From contig JADGEI010000007.1 in NCBI GenBank assembly GCA_016744455.1, positions 62,001 to 126,000 of the forward strand: 64,000 nucleotides of DNA. The letters are read 5' to 3'. Made by a program: the position numbers and the translations under genes. This document shows positions 5,778-58,906 of the stretch, in pieces (the first letter of the stretch is position 1; every line of letters starts with the position of its first letter). The stretch is from Alcanivoracaceae bacterium (GTDB taxonomy: Bacteria > Pseudomonadota > Gammaproteobacteria > Xanthomonadales > Marinicellaceae). The notes below the pieces were generated by a model. It searched no databases and was not told the origin of the DNA. It worked only from the letters and a program-made list of their open reading frames with translations.

Positions 5778-5803
5778 GCTAAATTAAAGTACTATGAAAA
5801 TGT

Positions 5804-5834
5804 AAAGAGGTGTATTTAAACACCTCTTTTTTTA
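5804..5834 (+). terminator. Intrinsic terminator downstream of porin
   Basis: AAAGAGGTGT-ATTTAA-ACACCTCTTT followed by T-run. Confidence 0.85.
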
Positions 5835-5931
5835 TGAATCTGTTCGTTCTTAACTGATAAATCTGTTTAATCAGCGATAAAACATGTATATCAAGTCTTT
5901 CCACTAGCTGTTAATTCTTTGTCAGTGCTAA

Positions 5932-7267
<1,336 letters not shown>

Positions 7268-7280
7268 CTTGATTTGAAAG

Positions 7281-8411: not shown

Positions 8412-8433
8412 TATTTATGAAAGAGAGGCCATA

Positions 8434-10275
8434 ATGAAAAAAATAATATTAATTGCTGTCAGTATTTTAAGCACGCAAGTTTCAGCACTAAGTCCATGGT
8501 TGGAAACGTTAGATAAAGAGAATAAACAGCAACAATTAGACTTAAGGTGGTCGGCTTTTGGAGGTCAAGCTGATGTCAAGTTTATGTACAACAAGTTAAA
8601 TGATATGCATGTAACTGTTTCTCCATTGCCGCAATACCCAAATATGCATTGGGATTTAAATCATTTGGTCTATCCAATAAGTGAAAACTCAAAACTGGAA
8701 CTTCAAATGCCCTATGGTAACATTGAAGAAGTGACAGGCGGCTCTTTAGCAATCGATTCTGATTTTACTTTCACAAATGGCAAGTACTCAATAAAGGTTA
8801 ATTCATTTAAGTTAATTCCAGCAGAAAAACCAAAAGAAAGCAGTGACATAGTCAACTTCAAGCTGATTGACCAAAACAACAATCATTTATTTACTGTTAA
8901 TAGTATTCATATTGAATACGATAGAGAACAAGGTTTGTTGCTTATGTCAAATATGGATTTATTTGCGACAAAAGAATTTGCAACTCTTCTGGGAAACTCA
9001 TTTTTAGAAGGGCAAGTTGTAGGACAATTACATACGTATAATAAATTATCTATACCAGAAAATGCAGAGGTGGAATTGAGAGGTGGTAGTTGCGCTAATC
9101 ATCCTGTTTGGCCTCCGGCTGGTAACGTTGATGTGGCATTAACTGCAATAGGCAGCGTACAATACCGCAGTGCACATAATTCGAATGGTTTAGATTCTGA
9201 CTATATTGTGATTGCACCATCGGCAAGTTTAAAAAATGTTGGAACAGCAGATGTTCCTTGGTATACAAAGTACTCGGGTATTTTTGATCCTTATAATAAT
9301 GATCAGCATCCTTTACTAAATTGGGCAATATACCGTGAGGTTGATGGTAGGTTTGAGCAAATGGCTGTCTCAGGTGTTAAGCATGCCTTTTTAACAATTA
9401 ATTTTAATTGTACTATTGATTGTGGGAATAGCCATATACTTTGGTTAGGTTGCGAAGATGTCTATGGTGTTGGAAATAATGATTCAAGTTCGGCAATTGG
9501 ACCAAGAGAAGAAATTGAGGCATATAGTGGTACTTGGGACAATTGTGGTACATTTTTTGACCCTATGCCGTGTCAAGGTAGTCAACAAAACTTCTCCAGT
9601 GGACCAGGCCAGTTTAGAGCCGTTGTAAATACAAATGATTTGGTTGATGCCAATAATTCAGGTGTATATATGCAAGCTTGGTACCTGATTCGCGATGATG
9701 TCAATATATTTAATTCTATGGGCTATCGTGAAATCACACCAACAGCTGGAGGTGGAGGGTGGAGCTTTAATCCAGGGCCATTTGCAAATGGTGCTGCATT
9801 AGATAACTATGTACCCAAAAATACCATATCAGCCATGCAGTCTTCTCAGACAATAGAGTCTAGAGAAGGTCAATTTGCTGTAGCTGTTAAAGTAATTGAT
9901 CTTGGTAATGGGCTTTTCCGATACAATTACGCTGTTGAGAATTATGAAGTGGACCCACAGTTTAGTCAATTCAGGATACCTATGCTTGATTCACCACTGG
10001 TAACAGACTTTGTATTTTCTGATCCTGATGACAATGTTACAAATGATTGGAGTTTTAACCTTATTAATAATGAACTACAGGTCACAGGTAGTGCGACCAA
10101 CGAACAAGACTGGGGGATGTTGTTTAGCTTTTCTTTTACCGCACCGTCACCACCAGTTGAAGGTGTTATGACTATTGATATCGCTAATCCAAACGCTACC
10201 AATACCGTCTCAAGTGTTGTACTTGTTCCAGATTTGAATGATTTTGATAGCTTGTTTAATAATAGTTTTGAGTAA
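8434..10275 (+). CDS. Secreted protein of unknown function with C-terminal SLFNNSFE tail
   Basis: Signal peptide (MKKIILIAVSILSTQVSA); C-terminus DFDSLFNNSFE. Confidence 0.7.
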   Translation: MKKIILIAVSILSTQVSALSPWLETLDKENKQQQLDLRWSAFGGQADVKFMYNKLNDMHVTVSPLPQYPNMHWDLNHLVYPISENSKLELQMPYGNIEEVTGGSLAIDSDFTFTNGKYSIKVNSFKLIPAEKPKESSDIVNFKLIDQNNNHLFTVNSIHIEYDREQGLLLMSNMDLFATKEFATLLGNSFLEGQVVGQLHTYNKLSIPENAEVELRGGSCANHPVWPPAGNVDVALTAIGSVQYRSAHNSNGLDSDYIVIAPSASLKNVGTADVPWYTKYSGIFDPYNNDQHPLLNWAIYREVDGRFEQMAVSGVKHAFLTINFNCTIDCGNSHILWLGCEDVYGVGNNDSSSAIGPREEIEAYSGTWDNCGTFFDPMPCQGSQQNFSSGPGQFRAVVNTNDLVDANNSGVYMQAWYLIRDDVNIFNSMGYREITPTAGGGGWSFNPGPFANGAALDNYVPKNTISAMQSSQTIESREGQFAVAVKVIDLGNGLFRYNYAVENYEVDPQFSQFRIPMLDSPLVTDFVFSDPDDNVTNDWSFNLINNELQVTGSATNEQDWGMLFSFSFTAPSPPVEGVMTIDIANPNATNTVSSVVLVPDLNDFDSLFNNSFE

Positions 10276-18885: not shown

Positions 18886-19944
18886 GTGGGGTTGTTTTCA
18901 AGTAACAAAATGCAATTATTCGGAGTGGATGTTAGTTCATCCGCTGTCAAAGTTCTGCAATTAAGCAAATCAGGTAAAAAATACAAAATTGAACATTATG
19001 GTGTCGATGCCTTGCCTGATAATGCGGTCGTAGAAAAGAATATTACCGAAGTAGATAGAGTTTCAGCAGCTATAAGAAATGCGGTGAAAAGAGCAGGGAT
19101 AAAGCTTAAAAATGTCGCAATAGCTGTCTCTGGTTCTGCTGTAATTACTAAAACCATCAATATGCCTTCAGATTTAACTGAAGATGAATTGGAAGAACAG
19201 CTGTCTTTAGATGCCAATCAGTACATTCCATATCCAATAGAAGAGGTTAGCCTTGACTTTAATATTCTAGGCCCTGTTGAAAATACTCCGGAAATGTCAC
19301 ATGTATTAATAGCATGTTCAAGAACTGAGAATGTTGACGTCTGTGTCGAAACTATTGAAGGTGCAGGGTTAAATACATCAGTCATTGATGTTGAATCGTT
19401 TGCAGTTGAAGCAACTTATAATCTGATGAAAGATGGGTTAGGGCTTGAAGATGATGAAATAGTCGCTTTATTCGATATTGGTGCTACAACAACGACTTTA
19501 CACATAATGTATCAAGGAAGAAGTATTTATACTCGAGACCAAACCTTTGGAGGCAAACAATTAACAGATGAAATTATTCAAAGGTATGGGTTATCTGTTG
19601 AGGAAGCTGGGTTAGCTAAAAGACAGGGTGGATTACCGGAAAGTTATGAAAGTGAAGTGTTGCAAAGTTTTAGTGATTCTTTAATACAACAAATTAGTAG
19701 AGCACTGCAGTTTTTCTTTTCTGCTACAGAATTTAATAATGTTGATAAAATTATTTTAGGTGGTGGAACGGCTTCCATTGCTAATTTAGTTGAATTAACA
19801 GAACAACAAATAGGTGTGCCAGTGCAACTTGTTAACCCTATGGAAAACTTAGCACTCGCTTCTAGAATTGACGAGATAGCAATTATCGAAGATTCACCCG
19901 CGTTAATGACCGTGATTGGTCTAGCATTGAGGACATTTGACTAA
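18886..19944 (+). CDS. pilM: Type IV pilus assembly protein PilM (GTG start)
   Basis: LFGVDVSSSAVKVLQLS...; operon order pilMNOPQ. Confidence 0.95.
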   Translation: MGLFSSNKMQLFGVDVSSSAVKVLQLSKSGKKYKIEHYGVDALPDNAVVEKNITEVDRVSAAIRNAVKRAGIKLKNVAIAVSGSAVITKTINMPSDLTEDELEEQLSLDANQYIPYPIEEVSLDFNILGPVENTPEMSHVLIACSRTENVDVCVETIEGAGLNTSVIDVESFAVEATYNLMKDGLGLEDDEIVALFDIGATTTTLHIMYQGRSIYTRDQTFGGKQLTDEIIQRYGLSVEEAGLAKRQGGLPESYESEVLQSFSDSLIQQISRALQFFFSATEFNNVDKIILGGGTASIANLVELTEQQIGVPVQLVNPMENLALASRIDEIAIIEDSPALMTVIGLALRTFD

Positions 19945-20534
19945 TGGTTAAGATTAATTTATTACCTTGGCGTGAAGAAAGACGTCAACAATTGACAAAA
20001 GAATTTTTTGTGTTGTTGGGAATTGGTGGATTCATTGCAGCTGCAATAGCTGCCGCAATATTTTATGTATACTCTCAGAATATAGAGTTTCAAAAAAACA
20101 GAAACACTAGAATAAACAATGAAATCACTCGATTGAATGCCCAGATTAAAGAAATTGAAGGTTACGAAAAGGAACGCAATGGATTATTAGCTAGAAAAAA
20201 TGTAATTGAAGAACTCCAAGCAAATAGAACACAAATGGTTCATTTGTTTGATGAGTTAGTGAAGTCTATTCCAAATGGGGTTTTTCTAGAAAATATAAAA
20301 CAAAATGGGAATAGTATTCAACTTGAAGGGTATGCACAATCACATTCAAGGGTGTCTGCTTATATGCGTTTGTTGGAAAAATCCGAATGGTTTTCCGTAC
20401 CAGTAAGCGTAGAATACATAAAGGCTGATGAATCTTTTGATACTCATGAACAAAAATTTAAGCTTCTAGCTAAACTGGTGAATCCATTGAGCAAGACCAG
20501 TGATGATGTTCTAGATGGAGGAGAGGTAGAATGA
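19944..20534 (+). CDS. pilN: Type IV pilus assembly protein PilN
   Basis: INLLPWREERRQQ; operon context. Confidence 0.94.
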   Translation: MVKINLLPWREERRQQLTKEFFVLLGIGGFIAAAIAAAIFYVYSQNIEFQKNRNTRINNEITRLNAQIKEIEGYEKERNGLLARKNVIEELQANRTQMVHLFDELVKSIPNGVFLENIKQNGNSIQLEGYAQSHSRVSAYMRLLEKSEWFSVPVSVEYIKADESFDTHEQKFKLLAKLVNPLSKTSDDVLDGGEVE

Positions 20535-21178
20535 ACTTTGTAGATGAATTACAAAACCTAGACACTTCCAACCCAGGAGGGTGGCCATCATGGGTTAAGT
20601 TAGCTAGTGTCATTGCTTTAATGGTTGTTATTGGTGTTGCTAGTTATTTTGCTTTTATAGAAAGTCAAATGATAAGTTTGACTAAATTAGAAGCAGATGA
20701 ACAGGCTACTAAAACAACTTATAAAATAAAACAAAGGAAAGCATCACAATTACCTGCATATAAGGCTCAATTAGAAGAAATGAAACTCATATTGAACTCT
20801 ATGTTGAGGCAGCTACCAAGTAAGAATGAAATGTCAGATTTAATCGTAGATGTATCTCAAACTGCATTAGCAAGCGGTATAGAAAATGAGTTGTTTGAGC
20901 CTGGTACAGAGACACTTAAAGAGTTTTATGCAGAAAAACCCATAGCACTTAGAATGGTTGGAAAATACCACCAGTTTGGAGAGTTTGTAAGCGGAGTTGC
21001 ATCATTACCACGAGTAGTTATTTTAACTATGCATGATATTTCATTGAAACCATTGGATAATGGTAGAAGTGGTGTTTTATTGCTAGAAGGTACAGCAAAA
21101 ACATACAGGTATCTAGATGAAGATGAACAGGCCGAAATGGATGCTAAGCTTGTTGATCAGGCTGCTGCGGGGAAATGA
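20531..21178 (+). CDS. pilO: Type IV pilus assembly protein PilO
   Basis: Single TM, coiled coil, 4-bp overlap with pilN; operon context. Confidence 0.92.
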   Translation: MNFVDELQNLDTSNPGGWPSWVKLASVIALMVVIGVASYFAFIESQMISLTKLEADEQATKTTYKIKQRKASQLPAYKAQLEEMKLILNSMLRQLPSKNEMSDLIVDVSQTALASGIENELFEPGTETLKEFYAEKPIALRMVGKYHQFGEFVSGVASLPRVVILTMHDISLKPLDNGRSGVLLLEGTAKTYRYLDEDEQAEMDAKLVDQAAAGK

Positions 21179-21711
21179 TTATGAATAAAATAAAAATGAT
21201 TATAGTTTGCCTTCTAATATTATCTCTAATTTCGTGTAATAAAGACATGTCTGATTTAGACAAATTTTTTGCGGATGCTAAATCAATTCCAGCCAAGCAA
21301 ATAGAGCCATTACCAGAAATTAACCCACCTGAAGTTTTTCTATATGAAGCCGTTCAAGAAAGAGACCCTTTTTCTAACGATTTACAATTGATGCAAGAAA
21401 AAATTGCGGAAACATTGTCTATTGTAGAAGGGGAAGGTCCAAATTTAAATAGAAGAAAAGAAATATTAGAAAACTATCCATTAGATGGTTTGTATATGGT
21501 TGGTACTTATTTACAAGAAAATAGTTATCGGGGTTTGATAGAGGACCCGGAAGGAGTTGTTCACTTCGTGTCTATCGGTGAGCATATTGGACAAAACTAT
21601 GGCGAGATTATTCAAATAAACGAAGATCAAGTTGACGTATCTGAATGGGTGTCAGATGGTTTGGGTGGATGGATTAAAAGAGAAGCAAGTATTGCTTTGA
21701 GAGAAGAATAA
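21175..21711 (+). CDS. pilP: Type IV pilus lipoprotein PilP
   Basis: Lipobox LLILSLISC; ERDPFS; operon context. Confidence 0.92.
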   Translation: MIMNKIKMIIVCLLILSLISCNKDMSDLDKFFADAKSIPAKQIEPLPEINPPEVFLYEAVQERDPFSNDLQLMQEKIAETLSIVEGEGPNLNRRKEILENYPLDGLYMVGTYLQENSYRGLIEDPEGVVHFVSIGEHIGQNYGEIIQINEDQVDVSEWVSDGLGGWIKREASIALREE

Positions 21712-23933
21712 TGAAGAGATTGATGGTTAAACTTAATAATACTGAAAAAAGGCTTGGAAATAAAATGAAATCTAAAAAATATAAACAAAATAAATTGTTA
21801 ACTGTTTCATTTGCATTACTGTTAATGATGGTGTTCTCATCAAGTATAGCTCAACTAAACCTTGAATCGGTTGATTACAGTAGTAGCTTAGATGGAAGCA
21901 TAGAATTTCAATTGAAATTTGATGGCAACGTAACGAAACCTGAGGTGTTTATGACTGCAAAACCTGCTAGGATAGCCTTTGATTTAGATGGTGTGTTAAA
22001 TAGTTCTGGCGTTAAACTATTGCCAATTGCGGAAGGAAACACTAAAAGTTTACGTATTGTTTCTACTAGCAACAAAACACGTGCTGTTATAGATTTATTC
22101 AAGTCGACACATCATGAACTTCAAGTTGATGGGAATGTGCTTTTAGTAAAGGTATCTGGGGATAAGAAATCTGGTAGTAATTCCGGCCAGAAAAGTAGAA
22201 ATTATAGTATAGAAAATGTAGACTTTAGGCGCGGTGGAAAAGGACAAGGTAAAATCATTGTTTCTTTCAATAAGCCTGGTGCAATTGTAAACCTAAGAGA
22301 GTCGGCAGATAAGATTAAATTGGAAATACTCTCAACAAAATTACCTGAACAATATGATAATAAATTAGATGTTATTGATTTTGCAACTCCTGTATCATTT
22401 ATTGATACAAAATCCAGGAACGGTAATGTCTCTGTGGAAATTTTGGCAAATGGAAATTACGAACACTTTGCATATCAAACGGGTTCTCAATACATAATTG
22501 AGGTATCAGAAAAAATTGAAATTGCAGATAATAGTGCTAAAGCTTTGGATAAAGAAGTTGAATATGTAGGAAACAAGGTATCCTTTACGTTTCAGGATAT
22601 ACCGGTAAGATCTGTTTTACAACTTATTGCAGATGCTTCTCAATTGAATCTAGTTGTTGCCGATACCGTAGAAGGAAGTGTCACTTTAAGACTTAACAAT
22701 GTGCCATGGGATCAAGCTTTAGATATTGTTCTTAACAGTAAGCAATTGGACAAGCGTCAAAAAGACAATGTAATATGGATTGCACCAGCAAAAGAGATTG
22801 CAGATAGGGAGCAGCAGCAATTATTGGCCTTAAAGGAAAAAGAAGAATTTGAACCATTAAAAACCATCTATATTCAAGTAAGTTATGCTAGAGCATCAGA
22901 TCTTGCTGCATTAATTCAAGGTGATGCAACATCTGCTGGCGAAGATGATGCAACAGGTGGCTCTGGTAAAGGATTGTTGTCAGCTAGAGGAACTGTTACT
23001 TTTGAAGAAAGAACTAATACGTTGTTAATTTCTGATGTACCAGATAAATTGTTGGTTGTTGAAGAGTTAGTTCGTACATTGGATGTGGCTGTTCGCCAAG
23101 TACAAATTGAATCAAGAATTGTGATAGCAACAGATGGTTTTGGTGAAGAACTTGGTGTCAGATTTGGCGTTAACGGTTCTAAAGAAGATTCTCATGGTAA
23201 TGTATTAAGTACAGGTGGTTCTTTATTTGCACTTGATAGGTTAAATTCAGCTGCAATTGATAATCGAATCAACAGCCCTAGCGGTTCAGCCCTACCAACC
23301 TTTACACCAGGTACATCTGGTACGCCGATTATTGGACCAAGTTTAGGTGACAGGTTGAATGTAAATTTACCTGCAGCAGCAAGTTCGGCATCAAGCTGGG
23401 CATTTAGTATCCTTGCAGCTGATTATTTGTTGGATTTAGAGTTGTCAGCGTTAAAATCTGAAGGTCGAGGAGAAGTGATATCAACACCTAGGGTAGTGAC
23501 AGCAAACCAACATAAGGCCATTATTAAGCAAGGTGTGGAAATCCCCTATGAACAAGCAGGCGGTAGTGTTAGTGGAGTAACTACAATCGCATTTAAAGAA
23601 GCTGTTTTACAGTTAGAGGTCACACCATTGATAACACCAGATGATAGAGTAGATTTATCATTGGTAGTGAAAAAAGACACTGTTGGAGAGTTTTTTGCAG
23701 GAGTTCCTTCTATTGATACTAGAAAAATTGACACTAGAGTACTAGTTGGTAATGGACAAACAATAGTTTTGGGTGGTGTATATGAACAAATAAAAAGGAC
23801 ATCTAGATCCAAAGTACCAGTATTGGGTGACATTCCTGGATTAGGTGCTCTATTTAGAAACAAATCAATTGAGAATGATAAAGCTGAGTTACTTATATTT
23901 GTAACCCCAACAATAATAAAAGAGAGTTTATAA
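21711..23933 (+). CDS. pilQ: Type IV pilus secretin PilQ
   Basis: AMIN domain, STN domain (DIPVRSVLQLIADAS), secretin (VEIPYEQ, LGDIPGLGALFRNK, ELLIFVTPTI). Confidence 0.96.
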   Translation: MKRLMVKLNNTEKRLGNKMKSKKYKQNKLLTVSFALLLMMVFSSSIAQLNLESVDYSSSLDGSIEFQLKFDGNVTKPEVFMTAKPARIAFDLDGVLNSSGVKLLPIAEGNTKSLRIVSTSNKTRAVIDLFKSTHHELQVDGNVLLVKVSGDKKSGSNSGQKSRNYSIENVDFRRGGKGQGKIIVSFNKPGAIVNLRESADKIKLEILSTKLPEQYDNKLDVIDFATPVSFIDTKSRNGNVSVEILANGNYEHFAYQTGSQYIIEVSEKIEIADNSAKALDKEVEYVGNKVSFTFQDIPVRSVLQLIADASQLNLVVADTVEGSVTLRLNNVPWDQALDIVLNSKQLDKRQKDNVIWIAPAKEIADREQQQLLALKEKEEFEPLKTIYIQVSYARASDLAALIQGDATSAGEDDATGGSGKGLLSARGTVTFEERTNTLLISDVPDKLLVVEELVRTLDVAVRQVQIESRIVIATDGFGEELGVRFGVNGSKEDSHGNVLSTGGSLFALDRLNSAAIDNRINSPSGSALPTFTPGTSGTPIIGPSLGDRLNVNLPAAASSASSWAFSILAADYLLDLELSALKSEGRGEVISTPRVVTANQHKAIIKQGVEIPYEQAGGSVSGVTTIAFKEAVLQLEVTPLITPDDRVDLSLVVKKDTVGEFFAGVPSIDTRKIDTRVLVGNGQTIVLGGVYEQIKRTSRSKVPVLGDIPGLGALFRNKSIENDKAELLIFVTPTIIKESL

Positions 23934-38531: not shown

Positions 38532-39947
38532 TCAATCCTCAAACCCATCTGTAAAAATAGCGCTATTATCAACAAATAACTGCGTTGCTAATCCATTAAT
38601 GTATTCTTCTATTGCTGTATATCCTGATGGCATTATGGTGTTGTTGTCAACTATACTTGGGTTTAGGCCATTTAGCGATTCCCAATTATTGGGCATTCCA
38701 TCACCATCTGAATCCAGTGGTGGAGCCGTTGGAGTTAAGCCATCGAGTAAATCTACTGGACGGAAATTCCCCCATGAGCCTGATCGTGTTTGTAAATCGG
38801 TTAACGATTGTCGTGCAATAATATCACGTGGGAAGGCTCCGACCTGTTCAATTAAAAGACTTTCGATTTGATTACTGATATCAGTCGTGATTGAAACATT
38901 ACCTTGTGAACTAAAATTGAACTCACCAATTTGATTGAATTGCATTTCAATAATGCCACAACAAACAAAAGTGTATTCGTTTAAGAAAGCACTATCATCC
39001 CAGGGATTATCAACTATACCAGTGTAAACACCTGGGTCTTGGATTAAATTATCGTGTAGCCAGTATTGCGTGATGATTGGAGGACTGTCATTTTCTGGAT
39101 CAAACCAAAAGGGTGCTAATGAGGCACTTGGGCCAGCGATGTAATTATTGCCTATGATATTAAACTGTCCATCTGCAACGACATTGTGGTGGACAAAACC
39201 TTCTCTGCCGTTGTAGATTAAATTATTTTTAACCTCAGCGGGACCAACTGATAGTGCTGGTGTGCGATTACGTGCGTGGGCAAAATAGTTATGATGAATG
39301 GAAATAAAACCACCCATGCGAGAATTACCATCACAACTGTTGTCGTCCAAACACGGCCTGTGGTTTAGTATACCTTTGTTATGATCCCAGCCATTACCAG
39401 GATCATAAATTGGGAATGAAATATTTGACCATTGAATGGTGATATGGTTGGCACCATCCCACATATCAATGTTTTCATCAGCGCCATGGGATACATCAAC
39501 ATGATCTAAAATAATCGTGTTGGCGGATGAGAATTGAATTCCATCATGTTGATTAGGTGGCCATTGTGCATCGGGGTTTGGTGGGCGAACACGAATATGA
39601 CGAATGATAATGTTGCTGGTTTCATTTCCAAATTCTGTTGTAAGATGCCCGACAATAGTAATGCCAGCACCCGGAGCGGTTTGTCCTGCAATAGTGACAT
39701 CACCATGTGGAATTTCGATATCACTGGTTATGATGCCTGAGACGTCAAAAACAATGATACGTGCGCCAGCTTGATCAAGCGCCCACTGTAATGAGCCAAT
39801 ACCCGAAGCATTTAATGTAGTGACTTTAATCACAGTACCATTGCGACCACCCGTGGCAAAAGCACCAAAACCTTCCGCTTCAGGAAATGATTTTAGCTGG
39901 GCTTGCGCTTGAAAAGTAAGCACTACTAACAACAAATATTTAGCCAT
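38532..39947 (-). CDS. Pectate-lyase-like secreted right-handed beta-helix protein with IFTDGFED tail
   Basis: Signal peptide; SFPEAEGFGAFATGGRNGTVIKVTTLNASGIGSLQWALD; DSDGDGMPNNWE calcium-binding-like repeat; C-terminus NSAIFTDGFED. Confidence 0.8.
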   Translation of the reverse strand: MAKYLLLVVLTFQAQAQLKSFPEAEGFGAFATGGRNGTVIKVTTLNASGIGSLQWALDQAGARIIVFDVSGIITSDIEIPHGDVTIAGQTAPGAGITIVGHLTTEFGNETSNIIIRHIRVRPPNPDAQWPPNQHDGIQFSSANTIILDHVDVSHGADENIDMWDGANHITIQWSNISFPIYDPGNGWDHNKGILNHRPCLDDNSCDGNSRMGGFISIHHNYFAHARNRTPALSVGPAEVKNNLIYNGREGFVHHNVVADGQFNIIGNNYIAGPSASLAPFWFDPENDSPPIITQYWLHDNLIQDPGVYTGIVDNPWDDSAFLNEYTFVCCGIIEMQFNQIGEFNFSSQGNVSITTDISNQIESLLIEQVGAFPRDIIARQSLTDLQTRSGSWGNFRPVDLLDGLTPTAPPLDSDGDGMPNNWESLNGLNPSIVDNNTIMPSGYTAIEEYINGLATQLFVDNSAIFTDGFED

Positions 39948-39961
39948 TGTTCTTTACCTTT

Positions 39962-42244
39962 TTACTCAAAACCATCGCTAAATAGAAAGGTGTTTAGGTT
40001 TTGTTTCCAGTGTTGTAACAAGGCCCTAAACGCCTCAGCTTTTTGAGTATTGGCAGGGTTTCCGGCTTGATCAATATCATTTACTCCGTGACAACCACCA
40101 CAGGCACGAATTTCTCCGGGTTGAAAGGTTATCCAATAACGTTCTCGAACTACTGGTGTTGCATCAGGTGCTAATGTTTGCCACGCCATTGCACGTCTAG
40201 CAGGTACAAAGGCGGCAACTGAGCCATCAGGATAAACTTCCATACTACCAGTAGGTGCTGCTGCAAATGGAATGTTATTTGCCATGGCATTGTCATCATG
40301 TAAGAATTGTGCAATCACTCTTTGGCCATTATCTGGTGAAGTTACGCCTCCAGAACCTCTAATCTGATCACCTTGAACAAATTGCATATGAGAAATGTCA
40401 TAAATTTTACCAGCTGAGCCTATGGTTTGATGAAGTTGACCAGCTACTTTAATGTTATAAGGTTGTTGCTTATCTGTGGTGTCTCGTGTTGTGACATCAC
40501 GCATCACTAATACCGCTAGGTTTTTGTTAGATAAGTAATCTTTAAATTGATTGGCGTTAACATTTTCTTCGTTAAACACCAATTGTTCTGGTGTTTGTAT
40601 TTGGCTACTTGTTAAAGGTGGAGTTGTGGTTGTAATAACTTCAACAGCCTGTAACTCCCATAGTGGGCCTGTGTAAGACACTAAAACATCTGGATCAAAA
40701 TAGGAAATAGTGACATTGCCCAAACTCGTAATTGGTGAACTAGGAATATAATCCCCTGAACCATTCATGCTATAAGTTTTTATACGATAAGCATATCGTG
40801 GTTGTGGGTTAGCTCTAGTGCCTTCGTTTAAATTACCTCTTGTTTCAGATGTATGTGAGGCAATTATTGTATTGTTATTCATGGTAATTGGGTCGCGTGA
40901 AAAACCGATATGTTCTGGTGGTGGCGAATCGCTGGTGTCACGGGTAGACTCATGAGTAATATTGTCTACAGTGACTAAATCAGGTCTGTCTCCATCTGCT
41001 AAATTAAAGGCGATTATTTGGCCGCCGTTATGGGTAGCAAATTCAGGTGCCTCAATCGCGAGAAAACGCCCGTCTTGATTGGGGTCTTCATGTAACATAA
41101 AAGTATTCAATATAGAGTTTTGGTTTGGTCTGTTAACACCGGGGATAAATTCTTGTAAATTAGTGTCATCGTTCAAACTGCGATTAAAATAACTATGAAA
41201 TTCATGCCTACCTACATGATTTAATGTTTCTTCTTCTGTACCATCCTGATTGATTTCCCATGGGAAGAAATGATTTATGCTGTGACCTTCTAAGTTTGTA
41301 CCTGTCAATAAATCTACTTCTTCGCCACGAGGTTCTGGAAAAATTTCCAAAACATTATTAACACGTGGCGCACTGGAATCTACGGGTTCAGTGAGGTAGT
41401 TAAAGGCATCTATATTGTTATTTGGAGAGGCTTGTTGATCTCTTTGCAAGTGGTCCCAACGAGTAAATACCAGCCGACCAGAACTATCGATCAAAGGTGA
41501 AAAAGAACCAGAAGGCGAATGTTGCAGAAGTGAAACCTCAGCTGTCGTCGGGTTTAATTTCCATAAACCTGTATTAGTCGCCGATGATTCATATTCGTCA
41601 TGTTGTGGGTAATTATAGCGATTTTTTGTTCGTGGCATATCCGTTGTAAAGATAATGCTGTCATCTGACCCATAAATTGGAGAAATGTTATTATAATCAA
41701 CAGGTTGGTTAGCTAATTTAGTAATGACAACAGTTTGCCCCAAACCAAAACCTGTTATTTCATAGAGTTGCCAAAAGAAATTGCGTTCGCCAAATATTTC
41801 GGCTGGTGCACCAATGACCATACTGAAAAGTGCCTTGGTACCACTCCAATGAATAGCCGGATCTCGAACAGCAATGGAGTCAGCACCCTGAAAACCAATC
41901 ATCCCAAATCCTGCTTCTTGGGTAAGGTTTCTTAAACTGCCATCGGTATAACGAATATACAAATCACCGCCACGGCCAGTGACACTAATTTCTCCTGAAT
42001 GGTTACCAAAAGTTGATCCAATGGTAACAAAATCTGCAGCAATAGGAAATTGTGTGACAAACATAATAGGATTGGCTATAGAGTTTCCAGCTATTGTTAC
42101 ACCGTTAAACAATATAGAATAGATCACAAATAGTATTATGAGAGGTTTTTGCTTAACTGTACGGTAAAATAAATACAGATTAACTTGGGTTGATTTTAAT
42201 TGTCTTGCGAATTGTGCAAAGCTATCTATTATTGTTTTATTCAT
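39962..42244 (-). CDS. HzsA-like/PD40 secreted protein with one CxxCH heme motif and FLFSDGFE tail
   Basis: Beta-propeller-like N-terminal half; PARRAMAWQTLAP...RYWITFQPGEIRACGGCHGVND; C-terminus NTFLFSDGFE. Confidence 0.65.
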   Translation of the reverse strand: MNKTIIDSFAQFARQLKSTQVNLYLFYRTVKQKPLIILFVIYSILFNGVTIAGNSIANPIMFVTQFPIAADFVTIGSTFGNHSGEISVTGRGGDLYIRYTDGSLRNLTQEAGFGMIGFQGADSIAVRDPAIHWSGTKALFSMVIGAPAEIFGERNFFWQLYEITGFGLGQTVVITKLANQPVDYNNISPIYGSDDSIIFTTDMPRTKNRYNYPQHDEYESSATNTGLWKLNPTTAEVSLLQHSPSGSFSPLIDSSGRLVFTRWDHLQRDQQASPNNNIDAFNYLTEPVDSSAPRVNNVLEIFPEPRGEEVDLLTGTNLEGHSINHFFPWEINQDGTEEETLNHVGRHEFHSYFNRSLNDDTNLQEFIPGVNRPNQNSILNTFMLHEDPNQDGRFLAIEAPEFATHNGGQIIAFNLADGDRPDLVTVDNITHESTRDTSDSPPPEHIGFSRDPITMNNNTIIASHTSETRGNLNEGTRANPQPRYAYRIKTYSMNGSGDYIPSSPITSLGNVTISYFDPDVLVSYTGPLWELQAVEVITTTTPPLTSSQIQTPEQLVFNEENVNANQFKDYLSNKNLAVLVMRDVTTRDTTDKQQPYNIKVAGQLHQTIGSAGKIYDISHMQFVQGDQIRGSGGVTSPDNGQRVIAQFLHDDNAMANNIPFAAAPTGSMEVYPDGSVAAFVPARRAMAWQTLAPDATPVVRERYWITFQPGEIRACGGCHGVNDIDQAGNPANTQKAEAFRALLQHWKQNLNTFLFSDGFE

Positions 42245-42314
42245 ATTTCCTCCAATAAGACTTAATTTTACTACGAATTAGAATGCAATTTTTTTATCTC
42301 TATCACAGATTCAA

Positions 42315-44204
42315 TTATTCAAATCCATTCATAAACATGATTTCAGGTTTATCCACCACTTCATCAGCCCCAACATCGTAATAAAATAAGGGTGTGCCAA
42401 TTGTGTTTGGGTCATTAAATCCACGAGTTTCATAATCAATATCTGGTTGAATGACAGTTGTACGGTTAGATGTGTTGATATAATCAATAGCAGGAGAAGT
42501 AGCTGACAAATGATAATTACCATTATTTCTATCTACAAAAAGCGGATCAGCTAGAATAGTTAACCCTCCTTCTGGATAGATTATGGCATCATTGACTAAT
42601 ATACTTGATGTTAAGGAAGTAGTCTCATTGGCAAAACATGCACTAACATTTATGTGCATCTGATCTCCACCTTGGGTAAAGTCAAGTTCATCGAAAGAAT
42701 AAACATCAATAAGTGGATTATGGATAATAGTTGATTGAATCTCTAATAAAGGAGGAAGTGATATATTGGAATTAAAATCAGTTCTAATAATTGATTGAGA
42801 GGCTTGATTGTCGGCAATTGTATTATGAACAAATATCGCGTCAATAAAGCCATATAAATTAAAGAGATAGTCATTCATATTTCCACCATTATCATTAATC
42901 ATACTACTTTCAACACGAAATAATGAAGGAGAAGCAGGGTGACCAACATTTATATCAAACACTGTGGAATCATTGCCTATGATGCTTGTCGATGAGATGT
43001 CAACACTATTATTTAACAATCCAGCTATTACGGTGCCGGTATTGTTTTCTATTAAGTTACATTTATCGTTACTCCAACAAGGTTGAAAAAAACGTTCTAT
43101 AGTTAAATCTGATTCGGTGGCATAAATAACTGATTCACCACTATTGCCTTGGAGTAAAGCTGCATTGATTTTTACATCACTACTATCTGCATAAATAGCA
43201 GCACCATGTTGAAAATTACTTAAATTGTTTTTCATTGCAACTGGGTTGTTATCATCACCTAAGCAGCCCAATGAGCCACAAGATTGATGGCCATGTATTC
43301 TAACTATAGAGTTTTCAACATAAATAGCTCCGCCAAAATTCATGGAAGAATTGGCTTCCATTCCAGTGAAACTTGCATTGCTATTTGAGCCGGTAAACAG
43401 TGCAAAATAACAGCCAGTAATATAAGCCCCGCCACCACGTCCATTAGGTGCAACTATTAATGGATTATTAGCAAAATTTGAAATAATCCCGCTGTGATTT
43501 GCCACATTTATCGAGGACATGCTTCCACTACAGTAAATTCCCCCGCCATAATCAGCAATATTACCAAAAATCAGAGACTCATTTAACAGTAAATCTGTAT
43601 TACCTCCTAAAATAGCAATACCCGCACCATGGATTGCGTTGTTATTACGTATATCGACATTTTCTAACAATAAGGCAACATCAGAATTATCAGAAAGCAA
43701 TCCTCCGCCGCCAGTTGGACTGTTGCCATTGATTAATCGTAAATTTTTAAATTCCATTGTTCTTCTTGTAGTAACACCTTGAACAGTAATTACCGTTCCA
43801 CTATTACTTGCATCAATTAACGCTTGACTTAATGTACCTACTCCCGCATTAGCATTAGTACAATTACTGTAACCTCCTGTTAATGAAACATCAGCATTGC
43901 CAATAACAATATTTTCAAAATAGGTTTTATTGGTTGCAATTCGTATTTCAATTGATGGTAAGGGTGACTGAAAAAAATCATCAATTGCCGTTTGAATGGA
44001 TGAATAACCACAAGCACCATCAGCACCAACAGTAAAAAAACTTATGCCCTGAATACTTTGTGCGTTTTGCATCTCTTGTTCGTGTTGCTTAAAATGCTGT
44101 GCCAAAGCAAGACTTTCCTTGAGCATAATATCAACCTCTTTGTTTTCATTGGTTGAGGCAAAGGCCATACCTGTTATTAATAATAATGGTAGTAATTTGT
44201 ACAT
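42315..44204 (-). CDS. Secreted parallel beta-helix protein, choice-of-anchor-Q-like end, IMFMNGFE tail
   Basis: ATG 44204 (MYKLLPLLLITGMAFA) with AAGGA RBS; DRNNGNYHLSATSPAIDYIN...DVGADE; C-terminus PEIMFMNGFE. Confidence 0.75.
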   Translation of the reverse strand: MYKLLPLLLITGMAFASTNENKEVDIMLKESLALAQHFKQHEQEMQNAQSIQGISFFTVGADGACGYSSIQTAIDDFFQSPLPSIEIRIATNKTYFENIVIGNADVSLTGGYSNCTNANAGVGTLSQALIDASNSGTVITVQGVTTRRTMEFKNLRLINGNSPTGGGGLLSDNSDVALLLENVDIRNNNAIHGAGIAILGGNTDLLLNESLIFGNIADYGGGIYCSGSMSSINVANHSGIISNFANNPLIVAPNGRGGGAYITGCYFALFTGSNSNASFTGMEANSSMNFGGAIYVENSIVRIHGHQSCGSLGCLGDDNNPVAMKNNLSNFQHGAAIYADSSDVKINAALLQGNSGESVIYATESDLTIERFFQPCWSNDKCNLIENNTGTVIAGLLNNSVDISSTSIIGNDSTVFDINVGHPASPSLFRVESSMINDNGGNMNDYLFNLYGFIDAIFVHNTIADNQASQSIIRTDFNSNISLPPLLEIQSTIIHNPLIDVYSFDELDFTQGGDQMHINVSACFANETTSLTSSILVNDAIIYPEGGLTILADPLFVDRNNGNYHLSATSPAIDYINTSNRTTVIQPDIDYETRGFNDPNTIGTPLFYYDVGADEVVDKPEIMFMNGFE

Positions 44205-44341
44205 TAGATTTTTCCTTTTTTTAGTTGTTTTTAAAACTGCACTCATAAATACTCCGACAAAACATCTTAACTTTTCAAGGGATTAATGAATCACTTCATA
44301 AATGCAGTTTTAAAAAATACGGCAGCGACTTTTCTTAATTT

Positions 44342-47300
44342 TCATTCAAAACCATTGGCGAACACCATTTCAACAAAAGCTTCATCTGCACCAACATCGA
44401 AACTTCCTGTAAAATTAGGAAACATGGGATCATCTAATCCTCTTTTTTCAAAATCGATGTCTTTAAAGCGGGCTTGAATAACACTGTCATCACACATATC
44501 TTTTGCCTGAGAATTGGCTGCTATATGGTAGTCACGATTATTCCTATCTACAAAAGAAGGGTCCGCAACTATGATGTTAGTGCCAAGTATTGATAAAGAC
44601 TCATGTGTCATTGCACAGTTAATATTTACGGTTCCAGTGGTTGTAGCTAGAACTACTCCCAAAGGGTCATTAACAATGCTTGAATAAAGGCTTAACTGTG
44701 AATTAAAGGAGACATCAAGTGTTGAAGAATTTTCAATAAAATTATCAGCAAAAGTGGAATGTATAATTTCAACTGTTGCCGAAATACTTGCAATGATGAC
44801 AGAAACATCAGAGAGTGCTGCTGCATTATTATTATTGAAAACACTGCCTTCTATACGTGCAAAAGAACTAACAACAGAAATGGCAGAACCAGTATTATCT
44901 TCAAAATAACTTGAAGATATATTAAGTTGACCTTGAAATGATTCAATGGTACCGTTAGATAGTGTGGATGTGTTATTTAAAAAATAATTACATTTTGTGG
45001 AATCCCAACAATCTTTTGATAACCGAGAAACATTTAAACTAGCTAAATCATTTATATATATTGCACTGCCGCCGAACTTTGATAAATTATTTTTAAATAG
45101 ACTAGCATAAATATTGACCGATGTAGATTGACCAGAAGCATAAATACCAGCTCCTCTGTCATCAATTGATGGTGAACCAGTAAACCCAGATGTATTGTTG
45201 TTGATATTCACAGGGCTAGTGTTATTCCCAACACAACTGGTGGTATCACATAGCTCATGTCCATACAATGTCACTTGCGAGCCTAAATCTGCATAGATTC
45301 CCCCACCTTCGTTATAAGCCAAATTATCAGAAATACCTAAATTTGTGGAGGCATCAGGGTTGTTCTCTCCCGAGTAAATGGTGAAATCACACCCATTAGT
45401 TAAATAAACTCCTCCTCCTTGTCCTTGGGCGGTATTATGAGAAATACCACTCTCGCCTTGAACCACAATTTTTGATGATGCACCTTCACAATAAATGCCA
45501 CCACCTCGGTGAGCAGAGTTCTGCATAACTAGTGTGTCAATTAAAGTTAAGTTTATGGCACCATCGGTTAGGTTAATTGCACCGCCAAAATTAAATTCAT
45601 CAATGTTGTGACCTGTCAGGAAAACATCATTGAGAGTTATATCTGCCACACTACCATTGGCTGATATAGCACTAAAATTTGAATCAACACCTGCAATGGT
45701 TAGGCCTTCAATAAGAATAGAATTGCCTAAACTGGTCCCCTGTATATCTATAGTCGGAACAGCGATTCCACCTGGTGCATCTATTGTTGTATGGGTAGTG
45801 GCGTTGTTGGCATCAGCGGCTGTACAATCAAGAAAACCTCCGCGTAATTTAACACTTTCATCATTAATAATAATAGCCGAATCATAAAATCCATTACGAG
45901 CAATCCTGACTTCTCCAACACCTGTATCTATCACATCTTGGATTGTTTGTGTGGTCGAATTAAAATCACATGTGGCATCAGTTCCAATGGTAAAATAATT
46001 TTTTGAGAAATTTTCATCTGCACCAATATCAAAAGCTCCCATAAAGTTACTCAAATTTGGGTTGTCCCATCCATAACTCTGAAAATCCATGTCTTTATTG
46101 GTTGGTGTAGTTAAAACAGAACAATAATCTATCGCAGGAGAAGTATTACTTAAGTGATAATCTTGATTGGCACGATCAAAAAATTCGGGATCATCTACGG
46201 TATTGCTCGCACCGGATAATGAACTAATTTCGTGTGCCATCACGCAAAATGCGCCAATAAAACCACTGCCACCTAGCCCAAATGCCAATACTGGACCACT
46301 AGTAACATCATCTATAATGCTTGAATTCAACAACAATACCGTACCTGGATCATCTTCAATCTTGAATATGCCAATTTCTGTATCATTGTCGGCAATAGTC
46401 GCGTATTTAAAGGCATAATCAGCACCTGTATTGCCAATAAACAAATGACTACTCAAAAAACCTGATGACCCACCATTGCTGTGAAAAATAGAAGTATCTA
46501 TATTGGTTACACCATTATTGCTGTTATAAACAGCAACCCCTAAGTTGGCATTACTTCCTTGGATAATCGCATGAGATATATTAGCGGTTGCATCATTGTT
46601 GTATAAAAAACCGCCGGTGAAATCAGCACGGTTCGCTTTAAACAAATTACAATTTACAGAATCCCAACAATCAATACCATTGCGATTAATGGTTAGATTG
46701 GCATGATCAAAAAGTGCAATTGCACCACCAGATGATTGAGTAGCTGCATTGGCATTAAACCAAGCAGCAGAAATCGTTACATCGGTATTAGTTCCTGTGG
46801 CATAAATGGCACCACCAGCAAAGGAACTTGGGACAATACCATTCGAATTAGCTGTGTTTTCCATCATATTGGCAGGATTATTTTTATCACCGAAACAGTG
46901 ATTTGATAGGTTACATAATTGGGTACCATGAATTAATAAACTTGCCCCTGAATTAAGGTAAACACCACCTCCTGAACTTTCTGCTTGATTTAGGTTGATG
47001 CCTTGTATATCGGCAATACTTCCTTCTATACTTTTTGTGTTATGAATATTGTTCGGAATATTAAAAGGGTTTGCAGATCCTGCAAATGATGCCAATAAAC
47101 ATTGTCGGAATAAAAAAGCGCCACCTCCATTTCCCTCTGTTTGGTTTAATGATATACTACTACCTGTATTTACAACAATAGTCGCAAACTTATTCATACC
47201 ACTAAAGTCATTACAATAAATACCACCTCCACTACTAATGGTTTGATTGTTACTGATTGTCGTGTTGTTAAGAATAACGGTGACATTACTCGACTGGACC

Positions 47301-47905
47301 AACAATCCTCCACCATACACAATATTTGATCCTTCCGTTAACCACGTATTTTGTAAGATTACATCAGAATCCGTATTAACAACCGCAATACCACCACCTG
47401 TTGTTAAGCCCTGTCCATCGCCAACAACTACTTTTATATTTTCAAAGGTGGTCATGTTGTGAGAAAGCAAGCCAGTAATAGTAAATATTGAACCGCTTTG
47501 ACCATTTGGTCGAGTGATTTCTGTCCAGTCTTGTTGTTGATTTGATTGGTTATTACTTTCAGCAGCGGTGCATGAAGAAAAGCCTCCACGGATACTTAAA
47601 TTGACCAAAGGGTCGTTGATGGTTATAAATTCCTGATAAACATCATTTGATGCAATCCGTATTTCGCTGGCACCGCTATTTATCGCATTTTGTATTTTGT
47701 TTGATCCAACACGAAAATCACAAGTACTATCACCGCCCACTGTTACAAAACTTGCACTCCCTCGGTTTAACTGTTGAGCTTGGAATGAAGAAGACACGGC
47801 TAATGCTTTAGATAGAGCCTGTTCAGTTTTAGGACTTAAATTCCAGTCTGGGTTTGCATAACTTGCTTGTGTAACTATAAATCCTAGAAATAGAAAAATT
47901 TTCAT
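44342..47905 (-). CDS. Large secreted beta-helix protein, two tandem homologous modules, MVFANGFE tail
   Basis: Two copies of TxGxDxTCDF...IQ..I..G..E(I/V)RIA.N..Y...I.IND..V.(I/L).(R)GGF..CTAA and two copies of DYH(L/I)..(S/N)S.A.D.C...D(M/I)DF...G.(D/N).(P)...G.FD(I/V)GADE. Confidence 0.8.
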   Translation of the reverse strand: MKIFLFLGFIVTQASYANPDWNLSPKTEQALSKALAVSSSFQAQQLNRGSASFVTVGGDSTCDFRVGSNKIQNAINSGASEIRIASNDVYQEFITINDPLVNLSIRGGFSSCTAAESNNQSNQQQDWTEITRPNGQSGSIFTITGLLSHNMTTFENIKVVVGDGQGLTTGGGIAVVNTDSDVILQNTWLTEGSNIVYGGGLLVQSSNVTVILNNTTISNNQTISSGGGIYCNDFSGMNKFATIVVNTGSSISLNQTEGNGGGAFLFRQCLLASFAGSANPFNIPNNIHNTKSIEGSIADIQGINLNQAESSGGGVYLNSGASLLIHGTQLCNLSNHCFGDKNNPANMMENTANSNGIVPSSFAGGAIYATGTNTDVTISAAWFNANAATQSSGGAIALFDHANLTINRNGIDCWDSVNCNLFKANRADFTGGFLYNNDATANISHAIIQGSNANLGVAVYNSNNGVTNIDTSIFHSNGGSSGFLSSHLFIGNTGADYAFKYATIADNDTEIGIFKIEDDPGTVLLLNSSIIDDVTSGPVLAFGLGGSGFIGAFCVMAHEISSLSGASNTVDDPEFFDRANQDYHLSNTSPAIDYCSVLTTPTNKDMDFQSYGWDNPNLSNFMGAFDIGADENFSKNYFTIGTDATCDFNSTTQTIQDVIDTGVGEVRIARNGFYDSAIIINDESVKLRGGFLDCTAADANNATTHTTIDAPGGIAVPTIDIQGTSLGNSILIEGLTIAGVDSNFSAISANGSVADITLNDVFLTGHNIDEFNFGGAINLTDGAINLTLIDTLVMQNSAHRGGGIYCEGASSKIVVQGESGISHNTAQGQGGGVYLTNGCDFTIYSGENNPDASTNLGISDNLAYNEGGGIYADLGSQVTLYGHELCDTTSCVGNNTSPVNINNNTSGFTGSPSIDDRGAGIYASGQSTSVNIYASLFKNNLSKFGGSAIYINDLASLNVSRLSKDCWDSTKCNYFLNNTSTLSNGTIESFQGQLNISSSYFEDNTGSAISVVSSFARIEGSVFNNNNAAALSDVSVIIASISATVEIIHSTFADNFIENSSTLDVSFNSQLSLYSSIVNDPLGVVLATTTGTVNINCAMTHESLSILGTNIIVADPSFVDRNNRDYHIAANSQAKDMCDDSVIQARFKDIDFEKRGLDDPMFPNFTGSFDVGADEAFVEMVFANGFE

Positions 47906-48145: not shown

Positions 48146-48997
48146 TTAGTTTTGTTCTAACCACTGTTTAATATTTTTATTGACTTCAATTGGATAAGGT
48201 AATCCATCTTCAACACCAACATACAATAAACACATGTCTTGTCTTTTTTTGAATACACTGCGGTATTTATTTAGCCAAAAAGACAAGTGCTGGTAGAGCT
48301 CTTGTGTGCCTTCAATTTGTTCAAAAATTTTAGGGTGATTACTCAAAGTACCAACGACTTTTAAATTATTTTGGTACAAACCTGTTTCTGTCATTGCTCG
48401 TATTTGTGCAAAAATAAATTTTTCTTCTTCATTGAGTTTTTTATAATAATATGAAAAATATTTTTCATATTGTAAATCACGTGTAACATCTAATCGTGTA
48501 TTGATCAATTCAACTAATTCATTTCTTCTATTTACTTGAGCGACAAATGTTGTGTATGATTTTTCTTGATACTCTGCTATTGTATTGACTGCTTTGAGCA
48601 GGCGGTAGTTTTGATAATAGTTAAAACAAAAGAATAACCCCAATAGAAGCAATCCAATGAACAATATATTTGGTTTTCTTTTTCTTGCTGTATTTTCTAA
48701 TTTACAAACAAATTGATAACCGCGCCCATGTACGGTTTTTATGATGTTTTGCTTTAGCCCATCATCATTCAATGCTTTGCGAGCAGACTTGATATGATTA
48801 GTAATGGATGAATCTGATACAACCCTTTCTTTCCAAATATTATCAAGCAGTTCTTGGCGTGAAACAACTCGATGGTTATTTTCAATCAAATAAACAATAA
48901 CATTAAATACTTGAGGTTCTACAGCTATAGTATTACCATCCATTACTAAACTAAAATTAGTTGTATCTAGGGTGATTGTATTAAATTTATAAATCAA
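48146..48997 (-). CDS. CadC-like winged-helix regulator with a single TM
   Basis: N-terminal OmpR/PhoB-type wHTH (EPQVFNVIVYLIENNHRVVSRQELLDNIWKERVVSDSSITNHIKSARKALNDDGLKQNIIKTVHGRGYQFV) followed by a TM (ILFIGLLLLGLFFCF). Confidence 0.88.
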   Translation of the reverse strand: MIYKFNTITLDTTNFSLVMDGNTIAVEPQVFNVIVYLIENNHRVVSRQELLDNIWKERVVSDSSITNHIKSARKALNDDGLKQNIIKTVHGRGYQFVCKLENTARKRKPNILFIGLLLLGLFFCFNYYQNYRLLKAVNTIAEYQEKSYTTFVAQVNRRNELVELINTRLDVTRDLQYEKYFSYYYKKLNEEEKFIFAQIRAMTETGLYQNNLKVVGTLSNHPKIFEQIEGTQELYQHLSFWLNKYRSVFKKRQDMCLLYVGVEDGLPYPIEVNKNIKQWLEQN

Positions 48998-57388: not shown

Positions 57389-58600
57389 TTATAATGAATC
57401 TAATTGATAGGTTATTTTCACTCCTGAAAAGATCAATTCTGTGCCAGGTATTCCTGGTTTAGGAATTGTAATAAAAGCATAAAAAATGCTGGTAGAAAAA
57501 TAATTCTCATTAAGTAAACCTGAAGAAATGACAATTCCCCCAGGCGTAGATAACGACCCAGTACTAATTGTACTTAGCGTATTGGAAGTATTGTTTGCGG
57601 TAAAACTAGTGCGTTTTATCCTTGCTGTTACTTGATTTGTTGGATCATCATCAAATGCAAGCAGTTCAAATTTAGTTATTATGGCACCATGTGGAATAAT
57701 AATGGGAGCATACAGTGAAACCGCCTGATTGAGGGGCTCAGTATTTGATAAACCAGCTGTTGTTCCTGAAGAATTTATTTCATATTGGAAGGAAGATTTT
57801 TCAGGGGTAAATGCCTGATACCCTAATGTTAAAAATTTAGTCTGAAGAGTTCTTTCAATTGTTCCATCCAAGTTAACTTTTAAAATTGGGGTATTTAAAA
57901 TACTTCTTATCTCTAGAGGGGCTGAAGGTGTGAAGTTGTTGCCAGTACTGATACCGACATTACCATCATAGAGTATACCATTTGTAGTCTCTGTCCAGGG
58001 AGTGGCATTACTTGACAGTGTTGCAGACTCCCATTCTCCAGATGTGCTATTGTATTGAATAACATCTCCTTCACTGGCTCCATTTGGAGAAAATTTCTCA
58101 AAGCCAATAGAGCTGTTTGCAATTTTGCTGTTACTAATGGTTAAATTTGCCAAATCCATTCCAAGTAAAGATCCATCTTCAACAGATCCAGAGTTTATTC
58201 CATCATCAGCTATAAAGTTTGCCTGAATTGCATAGGGTGAAGTATTGATTGCTATTCTCGGTGTAAGCCTGAAATATCCTGGAACTCCATTAGGTTTTTC
58301 AATTAAGACTTCTAGCCATAAATCTTGACCGTTAAAAGCAACATCTCCAAAATCTAATTCTGTATATAATAATCCATTCTCAATAACAAGTGTTTGGAAT
58401 ATTTCAGATAACTCAGTACTCGATATATTGTCTGGGTTATCAAATAATTTAAACCATACATCAAATGTATCATTAGCAGGAGAGCCTTCAAAAGTCACCT
58501 GTCCTTGATAATTAAATTTTGTTGTGGCTGCATCTGTATTATTCAAGAATAATACAGTAAACAACAAACCACTTACTAATTTTAAACTATAAAATTTCAT
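57389..58600 (-). CDS. Secreted protein of unknown function
   Basis: Signal peptide (MKFYSLKLVSGLLFTVLFLNNTDAA); FNYQGQVTFEGSPANDTFDVWFKLFDNP, RLTPRIAINTSPYAIQA. Confidence 0.6.
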   Translation of the reverse strand: MKFYSLKLVSGLLFTVLFLNNTDAATTKFNYQGQVTFEGSPANDTFDVWFKLFDNPDNISSTELSEIFQTLVIENGLLYTELDFGDVAFNGQDLWLEVLIEKPNGVPGYFRLTPRIAINTSPYAIQANFIADDGINSGSVEDGSLLGMDLANLTISNSKIANSSIGFEKFSPNGASEGDVIQYNSTSGEWESATLSSNATPWTETTNGILYDGNVGISTGNNFTPSAPLEIRSILNTPILKVNLDGTIERTLQTKFLTLGYQAFTPEKSSFQYEINSSGTTAGLSNTEPLNQAVSLYAPIIIPHGAIITKFELLAFDDDPTNQVTARIKRTSFTANNTSNTLSTISTGSLSTPGGIVISSGLLNENYFSTSIFYAFITIPKPGIPGTELIFSGVKITYQLDSL

Positions 58601-58609
58601 TTTTTTCTC

Positions 58610-58906
58610 CTATTCGAAACTATTTAAAAATATTAATTCAGCTACTGGGCTAGGTTTTAATAAACCCGAATGAATGACAAATCCAGATACTACATCTGAT
58701 GATTTCCCAACAATTGTTTCATTAATTGCATTAATGGCACTAAAAGAACCGTTTGGATTGGCCGATAGAGAAGGTTTATAACCAATGGAAGTTCTATTGT
58801 TTTTTATTTCTCCAAACGGTGATGCCCCTTTATTGGTTATTGTCTTAGCAAAAACATTTCCAATTATTATTAATCCCATTAAACATACTATTATTTTCAT
58901 GTTCAT
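58610..58906 (-). CDS. Small secreted protein with LIFLNSFE tail
   Basis: Signal peptide (MNMKIIVCLMGLIIIGNVFA); C-terminus AELIFLNSFE; 9 bp upstream of the next gene. Confidence 0.65.
   Translation of the reverse strand: MNMKIIVCLMGLIIIGNVFAKTITNKGASPFGEIKNNRTSIGYKPSLSANPNGSFSAINAINETIVGKSSDVVSGFVIHSGLLKPSPVAELIFLNSFE

Follow-up and report, generated by a model that had tools for sequence, protein, structure and literature searches.

A short, usually C-terminal motif on exported proteins of Lysobacterales/Xanthomonadales co-occurs with one type of type II secretion system

PEP-CTERM/exosortase, LPXTG/sortase and MYXO-CTERM/myxosortase are many-to-one C-terminal signals that can be detected by co-occurrence. 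GlyGly-CTERM/rhombosortase (TIGR03501; PMC3237569, PMC6219818) is a lineage-limited C-terminal tag found on many unrelated exported proteins of bacteria that possess a type II secretion system (T2SS); it consists of a motif, a transmembrane (TM) segment and a basic cluster, is cut by an intramembrane protease, and was not tied by its authors to a particular T2SS subclass. In the T2SS itself, cargo recognition has been attributed to structure and to multiple sites (PMC7949064, PMC12369372), with GspC and GspD recognizing folded cargo through determinants such as loop 3 of PelI, the loops of Pel3 and the Ig-fold of VesB, and a 2025 study concluded that recognition is structural and that no universal linear signal for secretion by the T2SS exists (PMC12369372). 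T2SSs with a PDZ domain in GspC are found outside the order considered here, as in the case of EpsC and OutC (PMC12369372).

The seven-residue motif [ILMV]-F-x-[ND]-[GS]-F-E described here, hereafter the tail, shares with GlyGly-CTERM its restriction to a lineage, its many unrelated exported carriers in T2SS-bearing bacteria and some cargo families (ExeM), but it is a bare motif and, unlike GlyGly-CTERM, is linked by co-occurrence to one T2SS subclass. It has 'choice-of-anchor' bodies in common with PEP-CTERM, LPXTG and MYXO-CTERM, but not their TM helix, basic cluster or invariant cysteine. The first-pass annotation had already set the tail apart from PEP-CTERM, GlyGly-CTERM and LPXTG for want of a TM segment and basic cluster, and this is borne out by tails that end within 3 residues of the E, with no conserved hydrophobic helix or basic end. 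The C-terminal signal of type IX secretion in Bacteroidota also leads proteins across the outer membrane and also has no TM helix. It is a folded domain of about 70-100 residues, whereas the tail has about nine conserved positions and no conserved domain of that length. Type I secretion cargo carries no N-terminal Sec signal peptide, whereas tail proteins do, and the beta-signal of outer-membrane proteins is the last strand of a barrel with an aromatic end, whereas the tail ends in E on non-barrel bodies. The determinants of PelI, Pel3 and VesB are structural and specific to each protein, whereas the tail is one linear motif across unrelated cargo. Known C-terminal tags have either a TM helix with a basic end or a folded domain, and the tail matches neither. 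No C-terminal sorting model appeared for 76 tail proteins among the first 25 of 73 families listed, nor in the tail proteins examined singly, and a literature search for the motif found no paper describing it; to our knowledge, no short linear label of such a kind has been known before for T2SSs.

The tail and the proteins that carry it

The window, a stretch of 64,000 nucleotides, encodes six exported proteins that were noticed at first reading to share their last residues, and all six translations end as claimed (Table 1); the remaining exported proteins of the window lack the tail on translation, again in line with that reading. Four of the six genes are neighbours. The pectate-lyase-like body of one matches NF041900 pec_ly_PelZ (6.5e-27) and that of the next PF18582, the hydrazine-synthase-alpha middle domain (9.2e-11), the latter lying without obvious hydrazine synthase context. 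The start of the 42315 gene had been placed at 44204 and is corrected to the first ATG, at 44246. A fold model of its product, based on 4 sequences, is beta-rich with the last ~105 residues unordered (pLDDT mostly ~22-27), which with so few sequences may reflect disorder or a poor model alike. The bodies had been called unrelated, which does not hold for the beta-helix proteins starting at 42315 and 44342, members of one BLAST cluster.

Table 1. Tails, internal motif copies and associated loci (window coordinates unless a handle precedes them)
Feature	Coordinates	Strand	Remark
Tail SLFNNSFE of exported protein 8434-10275	10249..10272	+	translation; S-type variant of tail
Tail AIFTDGFED of pectate-lyase-like protein 38532-39947	38535..38561	-	translation
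Tail FLFSDGFE of HZS_alpha-middle-domain protein 39962-42244	39965..39988	-	strict pattern match
Tail IMFMNGFE of beta-helix protein 42315-44246	42318..42341	-	strict pattern match
Tail MVFANGFE of beta-helix protein 44342-47905	44345..44368	-	strict pattern match
Tail LIFLNSFE of small exported protein 58610-58906	58613..58636	-	translation
Run of four neighbouring exported tail genes	38532..47905	-	
pilMNOPQ-like operon	18886..23933	+	secretin not the tail-linked one
Tail-linked gspC-D-E-F	G000:C36 (L123:6200-12533)	-	outside window
Tail-linked gspG-K	G000:C39 (L366:6943-9755)	-	outside window
Exported proteins with motif followed by 60-94-residue extension	L057:4236-6407, L060:9673-13455, L064:10667-13303, L056:272-2110, L049:3788-6220		
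Exported protein with motif directly behind signal peptide	L088:11681-13666		
CadC-like winged-helix regulators beside tail genes	48146-48997, 59043-61376; L039, L043, L049, L064		some with TPR repeats
Sigma-factor-like paralogues beside tail genes	L035:736-1317, L039:2446-3015, L054:9538-10101, L060:3719-4315, L061:5819-6382, L066:5206-5757		by eye; ~190 residues
Pair of exported proteins, the smaller with tail	57389-58906; L043:8378-9764		larger protein of 360-400 residues
Canonical GspG of an f2 genome	G312:C85:4152-4547		
Exported Pfam-less proteins beside Xps-type T2SS	L124:4698-5645, 5675-6763, 7042-8487, 8625-9077 (G000:C28)		

As a DNA pattern, the strict tail F-x-[ND]-G-F-E followed by a stop occurs at 42 places in the 3.62-Mb genome from which the window comes and at none in the reversed control, and a looser pattern without the stop at 105 places, against 16 in the reversed control; about 0.06 chance C-terminal matches would be expected per proteome of about 3300 proteins. 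Gene calling in 61 sampled stretches, for which 60 had been fetched around matches, gave 78 tail-bearing proteins. Within the 382 called genes of these loci, which were picked for their matches so that totals there are not a proteome fraction, F-x-[ND]-[GS]-F-[ED] was found 74 times at most 4 residues from the C-terminus and 16 times internally. The E is the exact end of 56 of the 74 tails, and the other 18 have it within 3 residues of the end. Conservation is limited to positions -3 to +5, with D/E preferred at -3, [ILMV] at -1, F at 0, any residue at +1, N/D at +2, G/S at +3, F at +4 and E at +5, so that the core runs from -1 to +5 with an acidic preference at -3. The strictly C-terminal position assumed at first reading did not stand: 3 of the 16 internal copies sit 5-9 residues before the end, and several others lie in exported proteins, in the same local context, ahead of long extensions (Table 1). 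If functional, these internal copies would make the signal an exposed linear peptide, not a free C-terminus. F-x-[DN]-G-F-E-x-G was tried as a general variant and set aside: copy numbers were mostly 0-4, and part of the copies were strict tails whose stop had been read as an extra codon.

The 78 tail proteins fall into 39 body groups by BLASTP, the largest with 22 and 12 members, with no sequence kinship between groups. Enrichment on secreted proteins, on which the first-pass annotation had staked its reading beforehand, was found: by a crude but strict heuristic rule, used in place of SignalP, a signal peptide was called in 55 of the 78 tail proteins and in 79 of 300 other genes from those loci (odds ratio 6.7, p 1.5e-12), while the majority of the 23 rule-negative tail proteins have one that is visible by eye. 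Their domains include subtilases, carboxypeptidases, M14 and M28 peptidases, FG-GAP repeats, endonuclease I, nucleases, beta-helices and choice-of-anchor families. In a LapA-like aminopeptidase (NF045908, 4.1e-30) and in an ExeM/NucH nuclease (NF033681, 3e-28), the family match stops short of the tail; both matches lie below the equivalog cut-offs, so the two proteins are relatives of these enzymes and not the same enzymes. LapA is T2SS-dependent in Legionella (PMC5904407). In L040:674-1933, the choice-of-anchor Q domain occupies residues 345-408 of 420 and the last 12 residues hold the tail. Like T2SS substrates, which bear a Sec or Tat signal peptide, the tail proteins have a signal peptide (by the heuristic rule) and a T2SS in the genome, and the LapA-like and ExeM/NucH proteins among them are relatives of proven substrates.

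The recurrent neighbours of tail genes in the sampled stretches were regulators and sigma-factor-like genes only, with no enzyme or receptor among them. The regulators are CadC-like, and six sigma-factor-like paralogues, which may mark regulons of tail proteins, share four of their six loci with a large protein of 786-916 residues. A pair of genes that occurs both in the window and elsewhere (Table 1) joins a small exported tail protein to a larger exported protein that starts with an 'F(S/N)YQG' motif behind its signal peptide.

Distribution of the tail and of two T2SSs

The strict tail occurs in 11 of 11 genomes of the genus to which the window belongs and in most of the family. In a class-wide draw, 24 of 364 genomes outside the order had a match and none had more than 2, so that within the class the multi-copy tail is confined to the order of the window, Lysobacterales/Xanthomonadales. 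A more specific pattern run over named genomes matched at least 119 stretches; the 80 matches listed carry mostly Lysobacterales/Xanthomonadales titles or belong to unplaced MAGs, and the named genera among them are Marinicella, Dokdonella, Rudaea, Tahibacter, Aquimonas and Pseudofulvimonas. The clearest outsiders among the matches listed, from Ferruginibacter, Bacteroidales, Alteromonas and Bacteroidetes, are 12-37-residue ORFs of the kind that chance predicts, and long tail ORFs were also listed in MAGs deposited under the titles Sedimenticola and Alcanivoracaceae.

Each of the 21 tail-positive genomes tested has two GspD secretins, the second being fragmented in one draft, and among eight tail-negative genomes two had no GspD, three had one and three had two. 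The first system is an Xps-type cluster with the order E-F-G-H-I-J-K-L-M-N-D, which is rejected as the partner of the tail because tail-negative genomes possess it as well. The second comprises a gspC-D-E-F operon with gspG-K at a separate place, both outside the window (Table 1); its GspC combines a T2SSC domain with a PDZ domain (PF13180, 8.2e-9) that is missing from the Xps-type protein. No GspL, GspM or GspN was found for the second system, and the full Xps-type cluster is present in the window genome. In a phylogeny of 36 GspDs, the 15 that belong to the second, short type all form one clade with support 100/100, apart from the Xps type, with which the sole GspD of the single-GspD tail-negative genomes groups. 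The secretin of the pilMNOPQ-like operon in the window (G000:C47:84926-85927) scores 186.8 bits, under the GspD cut-off of 351. PF03934 (T2SSK) was dropped as a T2SS marker, as it matches helix-hairpin-helix proteins, including in 7 control genomes. The exported Pfam-less proteins beside the Xps-type T2SS (Table 1) form a set of four that is kept at this site in several families of the order.

A GspC HMM was run over 151 genomes of the order, in which true matches cover most of the model and the others only the PDZ of DegP-like proteins; a genome was taken as tail-positive when it held two or more copies of the strict tail. Both were found in 53 genomes, the tail only in 3, GspC only in 30 and neither in 65, so that 53 of the 56 tail-positive genomes have GspC and the three without it are drafts 77-94% complete. 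The families in which the T2SS is sporadic (f2, f8 and f12) give 6 genomes with both, 0 with the tail only, 2 with GspC only and 64 with neither, an agreement of 70 out of 72: f2 has one GspC genome with 16 tails, plus one (G442) with a divergent, weak GspC match, all four GspC genomes of f12 have tails, as does one of the three in f8, and each of the 64 GspC-less genomes has fewer than 2. A further f2 genome, G312, has a canonical GspG without GspC-PDZ and without the tail, perhaps from an Xcs-type system, and G011, a complete genome of the window family, has no GspD, GspG or true GspC and no tail.

Family f9, without the strict tail, accounts for 22 of the 30 GspC-only genomes. Its subtilases end in [IV]F-x-D-R-F-E-like sequences (IFHDRFEADD, AFDDRFEP, IFDDRFEQ, VFEDRFELLP, IFDDRFENAN), which run on for 1-15 residues past the motif. 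Counted at any position, F-x-D-R-F-E has 10-81 copies in each of 15 f9 genomes and 0-5 in all other genomes, with 0-4 in total in the controls, its terminal placement having been seen in the fetched f9 subtilases. With the DRFE genomes counted, the table becomes 68/3/15/65 (p 4.6e-24, by a Fisher test that ignores shared ancestry). Family f3 showed two single variants (LFADGFESGG, LFSDGYDGD) and f7 one (VFTDGYEN), and some GspC-positive genomes have few or none of the known tail variants (f7, f10, some f8 and some f9). The co-occurrence is not phylogenetically independent and may go back to only a handful of co-losses or co-gains (f2, f8, f12, G011), and other gene families may have the same profile; given those few independent events, the support from co-occurrence is good but not overwhelming.

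Readings of the tail

At first reading, it had been proposed that a secretion or surface-attachment machine could recognize the tail, and co-occurrence now supplies a candidate in the GspC-PDZ T2SS. We consider it probable that the tail, most often at the C-terminus, acts as a short linear signal that targets proteins to this one specific T2SS of Lysobacterales/Xanthomonadales; the link is shown by co-occurrence, and both direct recognition by the T2SS and the subunit that reads the tail are inferred. Cargo would reach the periplasm through its Sec signal peptide and fold there with the peptide [DE]-x-[ILMV]-F-x-[ND]-[GS]-F-E flexible and exposed at its C-terminus; one of the subunits of the gspC-D-E-F T2SS would then recognize this peptide, and the cargo would pass the outer membrane. 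In this way the tail would direct cargo to the gspC-D-E-F T2SS rather than to the Xps-type system of the same cell. The likeliest reader would be the periplasmic part of GspC (through its HR or PDZ domain) and/or the N-domains of GspD. GspC is the best candidate because, in Dickeya and Vibrio, the choice of cargo is affected by GspC and by its PDZ domain (PMC12369372 and work cited there). The GspC-positive genomes with few or no tail variants count against a T2SS signal, as does the structural, multi-site nature of T2SS recognition. GspC-PDZ systems outside the order, for which we know of no such tail, count against it too.

The main rival, which we regard as rather unlikely, is a surface-retention or processing tag, in which the proteins would be exported by the T2SS for structural reasons and a putative outer-membrane receptor or enzyme would then bind or process the tail, by analogy with the GlyGly-CTERM/rhombosortase cargo of Vibrio, anchored on top of T2SS export. 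Several bodies do come from families with other anchoring signals elsewhere (choice-of-anchor Q, B and J; ExeM), and T2SSs are also present in GlyGly-CTERM genomes (PMC3237569), but since the tail has neither a TM segment nor a basic cluster nor a conserved cysteine, no inner-membrane transpeptidase of a known type fits, and no candidate enzyme adjoins the tail genes in the sampled stretches or lies in the T2SS operons examined. As a special case of the T2SS signal, and an unlikely one, the tail could be a canonical PDZ ligand whose free C-terminal carboxylate is bound by the PDZ domain of GspC. The presence of a PDZ domain in the tail-linked GspC and its absence from the Xps-type protein would suit such a ligand, as would the many tails that end exactly at E and the impaired secretion of VesB on deletion of the EpsC PDZ (PMC12369372); the f9 tails that extend beyond the motif, however, together with the copies far ahead of the C-terminus or just behind a signal peptide, would, if they work, render a free carboxylate unnecessary and argue against ordinary PDZ binding. 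A periplasmic quality-control or chaperone tag independent of secretion, read for instance by DegP-type PDZ proteases, is very improbable: many genomes of the order have DegP-like PDZ matches, but tail-negative ones have DegP-like proteins too, and these leave the phyletic pattern unexplained. That the tail is no signal at all, and stems from one inherited domain end, from recombination of gene ends or from chance, is hardly credible, since the paralogues in the two largest clusters stand against 39 unrelated body groups, varied codons among the strict matches of the window genome, an empty reversed control and a derived variant multiplied in f9.

We see an even chance that the tail is a general and transferable linear secretion signal of a T2SS, which would make it the first short address tag for such a machine; its lineage variants (NGFE, DRFE and single cases of DGYE) would then reflect co-evolution with the reader. 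Recognition of cargo by the T2SS is an old open question, and the tail, together with two T2SSs in one cell, makes it directly testable. If the targeting reading is true, the cargo of the tail-linked T2SS would be readable from sequence across a bacterial order, and the tail could serve as a compact export tag.
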